Origin: Candidatus Levybacteria bacterium RIFCSPHIGHO2_01_FULL_38_26
GTDB taxonomy: Bacteria; Patescibacteriota; Microgenomatia; Levybacterales; UBA12049
Length of the DNA stretch: 39,397 nt
Direction of reading: 5' to 3'
Assembly (NCBI GenBank): GCA_001782075.1
Contig: MFNO01000036.1
Coordinates: 1-39,397 of the forward strand
Shown: positions 16,651 to 39,245 of the stretch, piece after piece
Position numbering within the stretch: the stretch's first letter is position 1
Layout of the letters: each line of letters opens with the position of its first letter
Translations under genes and position numbers: made by a program
Notes under the pieces: model-generated
What the model was told of the DNA's origin: nothing
Seen by the model: only the letters and a program-made list of their open reading frames with translations
Database searches by the model: none

Positions 16651-17227
16651 AGACATACAAGAAGCAATAAAAATACTAAGTAGCGGCGGGATTGTAATTT
16701 TTCCTACAGATACCGCTTTTGGTATTGGTTGTAGAATTGATGACCAAAAGGCTATAAAGAGATTGTTTGAAATTCGGAAAAGACCACAAAGTCAGGCAAC
16801 GCCGGTTCTTGTTGATAGCTTGGAGATGGCAGAAGAATATGTAAGAAATATACCGCAAGAAGTTATTAGTAAACTGGTAAAACCATATTGGCCGGGAGCG
16901 CTTACAATTGTTTTGCCTTGTTATACTGAAAAAGTTCCAGAGTTTGTGAGGGGCGGCGGAGAAAATATTGGCATTAGGATTCCTAATAATCCGATGGTTT
17001 TGGAAATCATAAAAGGCGTAGGCGTTCCGATTCTTGGTCCTTCGGCAAACTTCCATGGAGAAAAAACGCCGTATAGATTTGAAGATTTGGATAAAAACCT
17101 TGTAAAATTAGTTGATTATGTTTTGGAGGGAAAATGTTTGTTAAAAAAGCCATCAACAGTTATTGACTGTTCAAAAAAGCCGTGGGGGGTTATTCGCCAA
17201 GGGGCGATTCGTATACAGTCATCCTGA
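16643..17227 (+). CDS. tsaC: L-threonylcarbamoyladenylate synthase (TsaC/Sua5, YrdC domain)
   Basis: A 194-residue single YrdC domain; the extra Sua5 domain is absent. Seen motifs: GGIVIFPTDTAFGIGC (about 14-29), the substrate-binding KRPQSQATPVLV (about 47-58), WPGALTIVLP and GPSAN (about 133-137). It makes threonylcarbamoyl-AMP from threonine, bicarbonate and ATP, the first step of t6A synthesis. It starts inside the tsaE stop. Its last codons and TGA lie inside a palindromic repeat unit (17218-17243), so the repeat seems to have set the C-terminus. Confidence 0.92.
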   Translation: MNKDIQEAIKILSSGGIVIFPTDTAFGIGCRIDDQKAIKRLFEIRKRPQSQATPVLVDSLEMAEEYVRNIPQEVISKLVKPYWPGALTIVLPCYTEKVPEFVRGGGENIGIRIPNNPMVLEIIKGVGVPILGPSANFHGEKTPYRFEDLDKNLVKLVDYVLEGKCLLKKPSTVIDCSKKPWGVIRQGAIRIQSS

Positions 17228-17285
17228 ACTCGTTTCAGGATCTAATTCATGAAGAAACGAGATGCCGAAACGAGTTCGGCATGAC
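17218..17285. repeat. Inverted pair of REP-like palindromes
   Basis: Unit 1 has arms ATCCTGAA (17221-17228) and TTCAGGAT (17234-17241) around CTCGT. Unit 2 has arms ATGCCGAA (17262-17269) and TTCGGCAT (17275-17282) around ACGAG. Unit 2 is an approximate reverse complement of unit 1, so the pair is arranged tail to tail like a BIME. This family of TCATCCTGAACTCG-type palindromes is widespread in bacteria. It separates tsaC from tsaB. Confidence 0.75.
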
Positions 17286-17295
17286 ATAAACGAAT

Positions 17296-35271: not shown

Positions 35272-35853
35272 TTAAACCTTGTTTTCTTCGTTTTTAATTT
35301 TATGTGGGTCTGTTTTATCTACCTGTTCTCTTGTATATCCCAACAAAGGTAAGGCAATATCCCTCAAATAGATACTCATTATTATAAAAATTGAGCCTAT
35401 CTCAAGACCTTCTTTATAAACAAAATTTTTAAAGGGAGCGAATCTATCTTCATTTTGAAGACTTTCAACAACTTCCCTTGCGGCAACTTGAACATCATAG
35501 GCAGTTTTTGGAGCTTTATTTTTTATTTTCTTAACAAGTTCATCTTTATTTTCTAATACGAATTTATCAGAACCACTTCTGCTCAATATATCCTCACCTT
35601 TTTCATTAAGGGAAATAGGACTTTTTCTTTTAGTGTAGGTAGCAGCAGCATTTTGAGTTCTTTCATCAATTTTTGTACTACATTCAGTTAATTGTGTAGA
35701 CATTTCTTTGTGTTCTTTTTTGAGAGTTTCAATATCTTTTTCAAGCGTATCTACTTTATGTTTATATTGCCCTATCCAAAAAAACGATACAGCCAAAGCA
35801 GAAACAGCAGCAACAATTACAGTAATAGTAATGTTTACAAGGTCAATAGTCAT
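35272..35853 (-). CDS. Membrane-anchored coiled-coil protein, unknown function
   Basis: 193 residues. An N-terminal membrane helix (about 6-27) is followed by a coiled coil (about 30-65, HKVDTLEKDIETLKKEH), then a soluble domain with a central SLNEKGEDILSRSG (about 80-93) and a conserved-looking end FVYKEGLEIGSIFIIMSIYLRD. No named family can be assigned. The gene stands alone, reading left, with a good promoter. There is no obvious terminator in the 228 bp after it. Confidence 0.7.
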   Translation of the reverse strand: MTIDLVNITITVIVAAVSALAVSFFWIGQYKHKVDTLEKDIETLKKEHKEMSTQLTECSTKIDERTQNAAATYTKRKSPISLNEKGEDILSRSGSDKFVLENKDELVKKIKNKAPKTAYDVQVAAREVVESLQNEDRFAPFKNFVYKEGLEIGSIFIIMSIYLRDIALPLLGYTREQVDKTDPHKIKNEENKV

Positions 35854-35872
35854 AACATTATTCTATCATACA

Positions 35873-35901
35873 ATTTTAAAAATAAAAACAGCATTAGTCA
35901 A
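35873..35901 (-). promoter_or_regulatory. Promoter of the gene at 35853
   Basis: On the minus strand TTGACT (35901-35896), 17 nt, TAAAAT (35878-35873). The leader is about 13 nt. Confidence 0.55.
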
Positions 35902-36038
35902 GTATTTCCTATGGGTTCAAACTAAACAAGTCTCCACTGTTTATCTTCCCTTGTCCTTTCCGTGTCTTGAGGGGAGAACCACCCATTTTGCCATTTGACA
36001 AATCGTTTTAGATTTGTTTAGATAAGGTTAAACTGGTG

Positions 36039-36067
36039 TTGACAAGCAGAAAAATTGAGGTTAAATG
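36039..36067 (+). promoter_or_regulatory. Candidate promoter of a plus-strand RNA
   Basis: Perfect TTGACA (36039-36044) with TTAAAT after 16 nt or TAAATG after 17 nt. Points toward a structured, non-coding stretch ending at a terminator. Confidence 0.4.
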
Positions 36068-36072
36068 GCATT

Positions 36073-36325
36073 CCTGATAAAAGTTCTTTAATAATCGTAG
36101 TCATTTTTAGGTTAACTAGGCTTCCGTGCTAATGGAATTTAAGGGTATTTCCTACTTAACGGAGTTAACGTCTGTAGTATTATTTACCACCTAGTAAACC
36201 TAAAAATAATTGCGATTTTAGATGTAAGAGCTAGTCTCTTTCTCGTTAGTTCAACCTAACGGTCTCTACTTTTTAGACCTAAAAGCTCTGATTGCGTATT
36301 TACACTTTCGGAGCTTTTTTTTGCA
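36073..36325 (+). ncRNA. Candidate structured non-coding RNA
   Basis: About 250 nt without a credible ORF on the plus strand, bounded by a TTGACA promoter and an intrinsic terminator. Arms at 36104-36120 and 36190-36206 pair over 17 positions with one mismatch, extended outward by AATCG/CGATT (36093-36097, 36213-36217). A separate hairpin CGTTAG/CTAACG lies at 36244-36261. AGAGCT (about 36227-36232) can pair with AGCTCT (36284-36289), in competition with the terminator stem. I could not match it to tmRNA, RNase P, SRP or a known riboswitch. It could be a 6S-like or regulatory RNA. Confidence 0.4.
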
Positions 36326-36355
36326 TACTGGGCAACATGGTAAAACATGTGCCAT
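36266..36355 (-). CDS. Possible 29-aa Cys-rich micropeptide
   Basis: ATG at 36355 opens a 29-codon frame with CCPVC followed by a later Cys (C7, C8, C11, C18) and many Lys/Arg, like a half zinc ribbon. AGGAGG (36370-36365) sits 9 nt before the ATG, one of the best ribosome sites in the window. The first codons fold in a hairpin (36331-36353), and the frame crosses the plus-strand terminator. It may be a real micropeptide, a leader peptide, or a chance ORF in structured RNA. Confidence 0.35.
   Translation of the reverse strand: MAHVLPCCPVCKKKLRKCKYAIRAFRSKK
36281..36322 (+). terminator. Intrinsic terminator with T8 run
   Basis: AAAAGCTC (36281-36288) pairs with GAGCTTTT (36311-36318), and T continues to 36322. 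The loop is long (22 nt). The T-run is only on the plus strand, so it ends a rightward transcript for which no protein gene is seen. Confidence 0.6.
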
Positions 36356-36471
36356 AAGCTAATCCCTCCTTTCTCGATCTTTTGACCGTGAAGTTGTCAA
36401 GCGGCTACTTAATCGAGAAGTAGAGTTGGACTAGCTCCCCCGTTTAAAATTACACTTTTAAAGCGCACCAT
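36356..36471 (-). promoter_or_regulatory. Folded 5' leader (riboswitch-like) before the micropeptide
   Basis: Read leftward, nested helices can form. AGCTAGTCC (36436-36428) pairs with GGATTAGCT (36365-36357) just before the ATG, using one G-U pair that would be an A-C mismatch on the other strand. Inside it ATTCTCGAT-type arms (36419-36412 with 36378-36371) form 8 bp, and TTGAC/GTCAA (36400-36396, 36386-36382) form the tip. A competing hairpin CTACTT/AAGTAG (36423-36418, 36410-36405) overlaps the middle helix. The ribosome site lies between the closing strands. Confidence 0.35.
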
Positions 36472-36476
36472 TATAT

Positions 36477-36505
36477 ATATAAATTATAGGTTTATTTTAT
36501 GTCAA
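36477..36505 (-). promoter_or_regulatory. Promoter of the leftward leader RNA
   Basis: On the minus strand TTGACA (36505-36500), 17 nt, TTATAT (36482-36477) within an AT-rich run. Start expected near 36470. Confidence 0.5.
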
Positions 36506-36555
36506 CTATTAATTTCTGTATCACAAATAATCAACTTAATTTTTAGCTTCAATTC

Positions 36556-36588
36556 ACGCATGCGTTTTTTTTCTCTTTACCATGGTAA
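36556..36588. repeat. Two perfect palindromes
   Basis: ACGCATGCGT (36556-36565), followed by T8, and TTACCATGGTAA (36577-36588). Neither has a loop, so they are more likely protein-binding sites than terminators. No gene starts nearby on either strand except the leftward leader RNA about 50-80 bp away. Confidence 0.35.
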
Positions 36589-36787
36589 TTTTGTATCGTT
36601 ACCGAGTAGATTAGCTTTGTCTCCGTTAAGTATAATGTATACAATAAATGCTCTTTATCTTGAACAAACCTAGCTTTTTGCACACCTTGTTTTATCAATT
36701 CCAATTATTCAGTTTCAGAATAAATGGTTGAGATACGGAAAGTCTTTACATGTCGTTCTAGAAACAACTTGGCCAATTTCGCCCATT

Positions 36788-36816
36788 TTGGCCATTCTTT
36801 CCAAACGTGCTACAAT
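36788..36816 (+). promoter_or_regulatory. Promoter of a 14-codon ORF
   Basis: TTGGCC (36788-36793), 17 nt, TACAAT (36811-36816). The -35 is the right arm of an inverted repeat GGCCAA/TTGGCC (36771-36776, 36788-36793). The start 7 nt on falls exactly on the ATG at 36823. Confidence 0.4.
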
Positions 36817-36822
36817 TAGTTT

Positions 36823-36867
36823 ATGGCAGACGAACCAATCCAACAACCGCAGGATCAATCTACATAG
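36823..36867 (+). pseudogene. 14-codon ORF, probable remnant of a gene start
   Basis: Encodes MADEPIQQPQDQST then TAG. The composition (Asp/Glu then Gln/Pro-rich) is typical of cytosolic N-termini of CPR membrane proteins, like the protein at 11967. Beyond the TAG the frame stays open for another 13 codons (PSRLVRYTRYKEK) to a TAA. It is best explained as the surviving promoter and 5' end of a decayed gene. A genuine small leaderless peptide, or an amber readthrough, is possible but unsupported. Confidence 0.3.
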
Positions 36868-37030
36868 CCATCTAGACTAGTGAGATACACCCGATATAAA
36901 GAAAAATAATCCAAAGATTAGAAGTAAAAGAGCTAGCGGACTTCGAGTAAGAATTCGGGAAATAAGAATTTAATTCTTAATATATTTCATTAGTAAGCTT
37001 TATTTTAAAAGTCTATTTATATAACGAAGA

Positions 37031-37540
37031 TTAGCGGGTAACTTCAATAATGGCTGGAGTACTATCATTAAGTTCAGTGCCAGGAGCTATTACTGTTATA
37101 CGATTATCAGTAGCGCTTCTGTACATCGTGTATCCTGTGTCCCAAGTGTCTGCGCCTACACAATCAGCTTCTAAAACCGGAGTTCCAGTGTTGGTAAGCG
37201 GATCTGAAGGTAATGCAGCTATGTATTCTGTCACAAGAGTTGTGCAAAACGCATTACCTATACTCGTAGCTGGAGCTACAACAGTAGTATTACTTATTTG
37301 AGTTGGGTCAAGTGGATCTGAGGATATAGTTCCTAATGCAGTTATGTCGCCTCTATTGTCTGCGGAATATTGGCCGATCGAATTTAGAATTTGATTTACA
37401 TCACTTCTACGTTGTGTGTTATTCGCATTTGCAAATTGTCTTGCTGGGTTGATGGCGATAAGGGTGATTGCTAAGAGGACTGCCAGGATTCCGATGACGA
37501 CTAGAAGCTCGATGAGTGTGAACCCCTTTTGTTTAGACAT
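37031..37540 (-). CDS. Type IV pilin-like protein (major pilin/pseudopilin)
   Basis: About 169 residues. The prepilin leader MSKQKG is followed by the cleavage/methylation motif FTLIELLVVIGILAVLLAIT, with the conserved Glu at mature position 5, then the long alpha-1 helix. The C-terminal domain has two Cys (in AFCTTL and EADCVGAD) that probably form the disulfide loop of pilins. The ATG at 37540 gives a normal 6-residue leader. The upstream ATG at 37564 would give 14. A TTGACA-N18-TAAACT promoter candidate (37604-37575, minus) suggests extra, stronger expression than the operon upstream, fitting a major pilin. Confidence 0.88.
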   Translation of the reverse strand: MSKQKGFTLIELLVVIGILAVLLAITLIAINPARQFANANNTQRRSDVNQILNSIGQYSADNRGDITALGTISSDPLDPTQISNTTVVAPATSIGNAFCTTLVTEYIAALPSDPLTNTGTPVLEADCVGADTWDTGYTMYRSATDNRITVIAPGTELNDSTPAIIEVTR

Positions 37541-37615
37541 TTTCTTGGGCAGATAACTTTTCATTTACTATATTAGTTTATGCATACAAAAAAAGATTTG
37601 TCAAGTGGAATTTTA

Positions 37616-38320
37616 CTATGAGTTTATTATATTAAGTATTACAAATACAACTGCTGCCAAAGTCAGCAAGAAAACAATAAAAATTCCAATCACGATCAGA
37701 TTCTTCCTCTTGTTACCATTGTCATTACTAACTTCTTCCTGTTTTTCTCCTCCTTCTTTTTCTGGTTCTTTTTGAGCCGGAGGTGGATTTATTATAGGTT
37801 CTAATTTTAGGAGGTTGTATTGTTTCAGAGGAGCATATTTCCCAAGTATTATTTTTATTGTTGTCTCATTTAACTCTTCGCCAATATTTCCAAAAACGAT
37901 TGATGGAAGCGCTATATTTATGCTAAATCCCAATGCTTGAAATGCTTTCCTCACCTCTTCTATAAAATGACCGTTTCCCGCGATGATTCTAAAGCCCTTT
38001 TCAGAGATAATAACCTTTGAGACTATGACTTCAAAAGGAATATTGTCCAGGAATCTCTGAGTTTCAGCTGCTTGCTGTTCTTTGGTAAGGGCGGGGAAGT
38101 CTCTCTCGAAAAACATATCATGGGAAACGACCATAATCAGGGGAATTGGAGCAATTTTGTTGGATTCCACAAACGATTTAATATCCAGATTTAATTGATC
38201 AGAATTAATTATTTCAAAATCTCTTGCTATTTCGGGTCTAAAACCCAATTGAAATATTCTTTTTGTTTTGTCATCGTACAAAAAAAATCCGTTTTTATGA
38301 AGATAAATGGTTCCTGTCAT
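37616..38320 (-). CDS. Pilus-operon protein with C-terminal membrane anchor, unknown function
   Basis: About 234 residues. A soluble N-terminal part (about 1-175) contains PALTKEQQAAETQRFLDNIPFE, which resembles the helix-strand layout of PilM-like actin-fold subdomains, but no nucleotide-binding motif is evident. A Pro/Glu/Lys linker follows (about 180-205), then one membrane helix (about 208-232) at the very C-terminus. The start is decided by AAGGAG, 8 nt before the ATG at 38320, which also overlaps the upstream stop (ATGA). The GTG at 38338 precedes that site. Probably an assembly component that replaces PilM/PilN-type functions; inferred from position. Confidence 0.65.
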   Translation of the reverse strand: MTGTIYLHKNGFFLYDDKTKRIFQLGFRPEIARDFEIINSDQLNLDIKSFVESNKIAPIPLIMVVSHDMFFERDFPALTKEQQAAETQRFLDNIPFEVIVSKVIISEKGFRIIAGNGHFIEEVRKAFQALGFSINIALPSIVFGNIGEELNETTIKIILGKYAPLKQYNLLKLEPIINPPPAQKEPEKEGGEKQEEVSNDNGNKRKNLIVIGIFIVFLLTLAAVVFVILNIINS

Positions 38321-38730
38321 AAGTAAATCTCCTTCCACGACGTGACAGTAAGAACGTTACTTACATATGTTGCCACAACTTGAATTTTTCGCTGGAAGTC
38401 TCCAGATGTTCCCGTTGATGTAACAGTGATAGGGCTTATCCCATTGCACCCGCCTGCGCCATCCACCACCGTTATAGCCGCGGTGCCTGTGTCGATAGGC
38501 AGTGTTTCACCGCAGTAGTTGGGATTACGAAGCAGGCGAAGTATAGCATTTTCAGCGCCGCTTTGGGCGATGTAATATGTAAGCGTTCCTTCCTCGAGTT
38601 TTTGCGCCGAGACTGAATTGTTAAAAATAATTACCACAGCCGCCGAGGTTACGGTGATCGCAATTATCATGAAAAACAATAAAGTGACCAAGGCTTGCCC
38701 TCTTTGCAATTTAAATTTTTTTTGTCTCAT
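38317..38730 (-). CDS. PilX-like minor pseudopilin
   Basis: 137 residues. The N-terminus RGQALVTLLFFMIIAITVTSAAVVII has the Q-x-L-V/hydrophobic-helix pattern of PilX/GspK-type minor pilins, which lack the FTLIE consensus and the Glu5. The C-terminal domain is beta-rich, with two Cys (NYCGET, GGCNG). It overlaps both neighbours by 4 bp (ATGA), so it is co-translated in the pilus operon. Confidence 0.75.
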   Translation of the reverse strand: MRQKKFKLQRGQALVTLLFFMIIAITVTSAAVVIIFNNSVSAQKLEEGTLTYYIAQSGAENAILRLLRNPNYCGETLPIDTGTAAITVVDGAGGCNGISPITVTSTGTSGDFQRKIQVVATYVSNVLTVTSWKEIYL

Positions 38731-39245
38731 CTTATTCCAATCGTTGTCTGGAAATCTTTCGTTTCCAGCCCTTTTGGCTGTATTATTTTGCTTGTTACAG
38801 TATATTCAATCTGTACTGTATTTTTGCCCCCAGAATTGCCAAGTCTTGTAAAGCTGAGATTGGAAACTGTTGTCTCTGAGCTATTGAGCGCATTTGTTAC
38901 AGCTCCTTCTGCCAGCTCAAGATTTCCACCATTAAGACTATATGTATAGCTTACACCATCTATATTTAGTTGCAAAGCGGTTGATGTAGCTCCTAAAGAC
39001 GCTGGTTGTATTATACCTGCGCTGTCTTGAGCCCTGTTAATATCATACGCAAGTCTTGAGAATATAAAGCGGCCATCCTGCTGTACCGAAGACGTGGCTT
39101 CGGATTCGAGCTGAGCATCTATGATTGATCCAAAGATTTGCGACAAAGCAGCAAGGAGTATGGAAAGTATGCCCATGTAGATTAGGAGCTCTATAAGAGT
39201 GAAACCCGTCCGTCCCTGGGCGGGAATTTCGAATTTTTTCTTCAT
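38727..39245 (-). CDS. Prepilin-type pseudopilin (PilW/GspJ-like)
   Basis: 172 residues. A 14-residue leader ending in RTG precedes FTLIELLIYMGILSILLAAL, with Glu at mature position 5. The following region, with RFIFSRLAYDINRAQ (about 63-77), is typical of PilW/GspJ minor pseudopilins, and the C-terminal domain is beta-rich. Overlaps both neighbours by 4 bp. Confidence 0.85.
   Translation of the reverse strand: MKKKFEIPAQGRTGFTLIELLIYMGILSILLAALSQIFGSIIDAQLESEATSSVQQDGRFIFSRLAYDINRAQDSAGIIQPASLGATSTALQLNIDGVSYTYSLNGGNLELAEGAVTNALNSSETTVSNLSFTRLGNSGGKNTVQIEYTVTSKIIQPKGLETKDFQTTIGIR

Follow-up and report, generated by a model that had tools for sequence, protein, structure and literature searches.

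Long, structured noncoding RNAs of bacterial and phage intergenic regions, such as ROOL, GOLLD and raiA, are conserved, display covariation and are represented by Rfam models. To our knowledge little is known about regulatory RNAs in CPR bacteria, and a narrow literature search on the subject gave nothing directly on point. The locus described here would share with the ROOL, GOLLD and raiA type a long RNA with extensive structure in a gap devoid of genes, but it has no detectable relative and no match in Rfam. It resembles attenuation riboswitches in its predicted closing stem, antiterminator and terminator, which are mutually exclusive, while lacking a regulated gene downstream on the plus strand and a known aptamer. 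The par locus of pAD1 features convergent RNAs overlapping at a terminator and a Shine-Dalgarno sequence (SD) hidden by leader pairing (PMC7472228). The present locus has a similar predicted layout, with short convergent transcripts that overlap at an intrinsic terminator and a small ORF whose ribosome-binding site is hidden. It differs from par pAD1/Fst in that it has no hydrophobic toxin and, according to a repeat search of the gap, no direct repeats DRa/DRb; its antisense RNA would be much longer and more structured, and its terminator looks good on one strand only.

The locus occupies positions 36039-36505 of the window, the whole 39,397-nucleotide stretch analysed, which is a complete contig (C36); the genome measures 1.13 Mb and is estimated as 98.5% complete. 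A CPR origin had been read correctly in the first-pass annotation: SecD places the nearest relatives in Levybacteria, the closest named ones being Candidatus Levyibacteriota with at most 65% identity. The gene-poor surroundings that it described correspond to the gap 35854-37030, the longest stretch of the window without genes. The gap is flanked by a minus-strand gene coding for a membrane-anchored coiled-coil protein of unknown function (35272-35853) and by a type IV pilin-like cluster, also on the minus strand (37031-39245). The former gene has a promoter-like site of its own in the promoter scan (35901-35873, ahead of 35853) and a few distant relatives in the family, found without synteny; its product matches Rz-like spanins (PHROG 739, E 6.6e-9), possibly through coiled-coil bias. 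No Pfam family matched those stop-to-stop frames of the gap that were tested, and the gap thus bears no sign of a decayed gene. The hexamer TTGACA occurs in it four times, against 0.56 expected.

The reading that we favour, tentatively and with a little less than even confidence, is that two short transcription units face each other in an intergenic stretch specific to the lineage of this Levybacteria-like CPR genome. On the plus strand the unit would be a small, structured RNA that stands alone and is some 250 nt long, starting near 36074 and ending at the T8 tract near 36322. The minus unit would start near 36470 with a leader hairpin that hides the ribosome-binding site, and may encode a basic, Cys-rich peptide of 29 residues. 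We infer transcription, the RNA ends, translation and the action of a duplex from the sequence; if transcribed, the locus provides a concrete CPR regulatory RNA candidate with predicted ends. The elements named on both strands in the first-pass annotation were all present at the positions it gave, and the features are as follows.

36039-36067, plus: candidate promoter of the plus RNA (TTGACA at 36039-36044, weak -10)
36074-36323, plus: candidate stand-alone structured RNA of about 250 nt (from the fold; predicted ends)
36082-36232, plus: main domain, 151 nt (fold z score, inverted repeat)
36244-36280, plus: pair of small hairpins separating the main domain from the terminator (folds)
36281-36322, plus: intrinsic-terminator-like hairpin with T8 (sequence, folds)
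36228-36236, minus: GACTAGCTC, possible alternative partner of the leader in a longer minus transcript (folds, shuffles)
36266-36355, minus: 29-codon ORF MAHVLPCCPVCKKKLRKCKYAIRAFRSKK (ORF scan); the plus RNA overlaps it with its 3' part
36357-36436, minus: long leader hairpin burying most of AGGAGG (z score, folds)
36365-36370, minus: AGGAGG, Shine-Dalgarno sequence 9 nt upstream of the ATG
36477-36505, minus: candidate promoter of the minus unit, TTGACA (36505-36500)-N17-TTATAT

On the plus strand TTGACA is found about 40 nt upstream of the first helix and the T8 tract (36315-36322) directly 3' of the last stem, so these signals bracket the structure. The rest of the gap has no plus-strand ORF preceded by a Shine-Dalgarno sequence and the genes beyond are on the minus strand. 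Since the structure is bracketed and no gene follows, a stand-alone small RNA is its simplest reading. The main domain is closed by a 7-bp stem (36082-36088/36226-36232), continues in a long helix and has a three-way junction at its apex. The helix is built from an inverted repeat (36093-36120/36190-36217); long-range arms had been correctly noticed there, their length being 28 nt with 86% complementarity rather than 17 positions. The terminator hairpin (36281-36318) has a long loop of about 16 nt and is unlisted by the terminator scan; its T-run is T8 on the plus strand and only T4 on the minus strand. The promoter is poor in its -10, with TTAAAT at N16 or TAAATG at N17 as candidates and no site there that passes the promoter scan. 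This weak -10 counts against a small RNA, and neither conservation nor covariation, for which there is a single sequence, lends support to a function.

Folding speaks for a small RNA, the main domain being more stable than its shuffles and more so on the plus strand. Its z scores are -6.74 (plus) and -4.31 (minus), with 0/500 and 1/500 shuffled sequences, respectively, reaching its stability. The segment 36060-36325 folds on the plus strand at -78.7 kcal/mol (z -6.52), and 36233-36325 has z about -4.2 on both strands. When 982 windows of the contig were scanned for folding, 36081-36240 took the second and third ranks, the first being held by a dispersed palindrome at 17.2 kb. The latter is an imperfect palindrome of about 70 bp (17205-17290, GTCATCCTGAACTCGTTTCAGGATC...GATGCCGAAACGAGTTCGGCATGAC), a dispersed repeat with nine matches in the source genome, one of them its own reverse, and with matches in 33 of the 82 genomes of the order.

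That 36081-36240 folds significantly on both strands is also what would be expected from an inverted repeat or decayed mobile element at the DNA level, which folds because it is palindromic and is no functional RNA. We consider such a plain DNA palindrome possible, if clearly less probable than the convergent units. It stays the main rival because the G-U pairs of the arms are nearly strand-neutral: across the long arms and closing stem three pairs favour plus and two favour minus. The absence of detected conservation agrees with it, and so does the neighbourhood, as gene order diverges past SecF in the SecD synteny of 22 named loci wherever the flank suffices, the segment thus not being ancestral there. 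The palindrome at 17.2 kb is dispersed, whereas this locus is single copy: beyond short pieces, the genome matches only the locus itself. A dispersed palindromic repeat of the MITE or REP type was rejected on this single copy, and neither a target-site duplication nor a transposase is seen. Against a mere palindrome there are also the adjoining terminator-like hairpin and another structured part, whose strand preference is its own.

The first-pass annotation proposed mutually exclusive pairings on the plus strand, and these do exist. An antiterminator formed by 36227-36232 with 36284-36289 excludes both the closing stem and the terminator. It is preferred by 0.7 kcal/mol in nascent RNA ending at 36300-36308 (-62.1 versus -61.4), while in the complete RNA the closing stem together with the terminator is more stable by 8.3 kcal/mol (-76.3 versus -68.0). 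Such competition is nothing special: the closing stem is contested by 59 of 300 shuffled downstream sequences, and because one in five shuffles competes in this way little weight is placed on it. The order of preferences would suit an attenuator in which a ligand sets read-through and the read-through RNA is antisense to the leader of the minus unit, SD included. With these shuffles, no plus gene downstream and no Rfam match, we regard this as very unlikely. A riboswitch-like leader, one of the proposals made for the locus, is improbable in its classical form on the plus strand, where no gene lies past the terminator; on the minus strand there may be one, though the sole clear target is the 29-codon ORF and the next gene (35853) would use the promoter-like site of its own.

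The leader of the minus unit has a strand preference of its own. Over 36357-36440 it folds at -31.6 kcal/mol (z -4.63) on minus and at -24.2 kcal/mol (z -2.46) on plus, bearing out the view that a leftward RNA is favoured there. Four G-U pairs occur in the minus fold and two in the plus fold; among the former is the closing-helix pair 36431 with 36362, to which attention had been drawn. An AGGAGG with a start codon and at least 29 open codons is found in 0.8% of gap shuffles, a rarity (0.008) calculated for a feature chosen after the fact. The predicted peptide is basic (pI 10.3, net charge about +9.5), Cys-rich with a CPVC motif, hydrophilic (GRAVY -0.3) and without a membrane helix. It matches no protein family and has no relatives in 82 genomes, where the weak matches have stops or lack the cysteines. 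The ORF crosses the antisense of the terminator, its KKK codons being the antisense of the T8 tract.

The minus leader may also pair elsewhere. All nine bases at 36236-36228 are complementary to 36437-36429 (GAGCTAGTC), the 5' strand of its hairpin. In a minus transcript reaching 36200 the alternative and the leader pairing differ little in energy (-80.3 and -79.8 kcal/mol), and among 500 shuffled distal segments only one captures the leader strand, in a test picked once the repeat had been noticed. This alternative pairing of the modelled minus leader is recorded as a lead. It could serve a regulated micropeptide made from the minus strand, in which a signal loosens the leader that hides the SD, for instance through the 36236-36228 pairing, and the plus RNA is the antisense regulator. 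Such an arrangement would draw on the well-spaced AGGAGG and rare SD-ORF combination, the minus preference of the hairpin, the CPVC motif and the near-isoenergetic partner. However, the GGAG of the SD is still paired in the alternative fold, the leader hairpin reforms once the transcript reaches 36150 or further, the peptide has neither relatives nor a family match and its lysines read the T8 antisense. We judge it improbable, somewhat more so than the plain DNA palindrome.

Under the favoured reading of two convergent units, the units overlap over terminator and ORF, as had been proposed, and some 55 nt (36266-36323) of the two RNAs would be complementary. The plus RNA would therefore most likely have a cis effect, either because the two transcriptions collide or because it pairs with the minus RNA in the latter's 3' part, in which case the duplex would block the minus RNA or target it for cleavage. 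Either kind of cis action would follow from the layout. An antisense-regulated micropeptide, a further proposal of the first-pass annotation, is conceivable but lacks conservation, and the antisense overlap falls on the 3' part of the ORF and not on the ribosome-binding site. A bolder scheme combines the plus RNA with a switchable minus leader in the control of the Cys-rich micropeptide by convergent antisense transcription, terminator read-through providing antisense over the SD; we give a new kind of CPR locus of this sort very little credence.

Promoter-like sites that face each other, transcripts that overlap at the terminator and an SD hidden in leader pairing would also fit the layout of a par/Fst type I toxin-antitoxin locus, with convergent RNAs and a common terminator. 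TTGACA is present on both sides, the plus -10 being weak. The highly charged, hydrophilic peptide is not the expected membrane toxin, the ORF start is not accompanied by direct repeats and the long T-run is on one side only. Identity with par/Fst was rejected on the peptide and the direct repeats, and a type I locus of this layout is to us the least probable of the readings considered.

The search of Rfam that had been suggested as a check matched no known RNA family, with no hit in the window at the gathering threshold (Rfam 15) and only chance-level matches in a permissive search of the gap (best E 0.96). The Rfam scan found neither SRP RNA nor 6S RNA at the locus, while tmRNA and RNase P RNA were discarded as identities, the genome having its tmRNA on contig C33 and its RNase P RNA on contig C22. 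An uncharacterised CPR noncoding RNA, also put forward at first pass, is supported as far as the sequence allows by the fold, the flanking signals, this lack of an Rfam match and the Levybacteria affinity of SecD.

Covariance models were built from single sequences for the main domain (R1) and the minus unit (R2). In 82 genomes of the order neither found anything besides the window (0/81 others), and R1 found nothing else in 374 genomes of the class (0/373 others). A control model of equal length, likewise built from one sequence (163 nt of the source RNase P RNA), matched 77 of the 82 genomes and all 47 good ones; this RNA is unusually conserved, so that the control excludes only conservation like that of a housekeeping RNA and a fast-evolving relative could escape. 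Similarity searches at the DNA level in 73 genomes of the family gave chance pieces only. The best of them, 23 bp in genome L015, is inside an inositol-phosphate-synthase-like gene, and another, in L017, is at an unrelated place; both were taken as chance. Phages and plasmids gave nothing useful and viral contigs, searched with exact patterns, gave nothing. Absence of the arms and of the ORF from relatives, which was to count against the first-pass reading, holds for 82 to 374 relatives, the source itself being the only member of its genus among the genomes searched. The locus is best read as a single-copy, lineage-specific orphan, a genus-specific family being possible; without relatives it is a candidate and not a new family.

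Other repeats and a further short ORF were noticed in the gap. A perfect 12-bp inverted repeat (36153-36164/36621-36632, TACTTAACGGAG/CTCCGTTAAGTA) is present beside a 29-nt inverted repeat with 72% match (36208-36236/36429-36457). Origin of the minus unit as an inverted duplication of the plus unit was considered and rejected: its alignments disagree with each other, and p values of 0.002-0.03 with lax gap costs become 0.07-0.12 with stricter ones. At 36823-36867 a fourteen-codon ORF (MADEPIQQPQDQST) lies directly 3' of TTGGCC-N17-TACAAT, which has a TG ahead of the -10, and resembles the start of a leaderless gene ended early by a stop codon.
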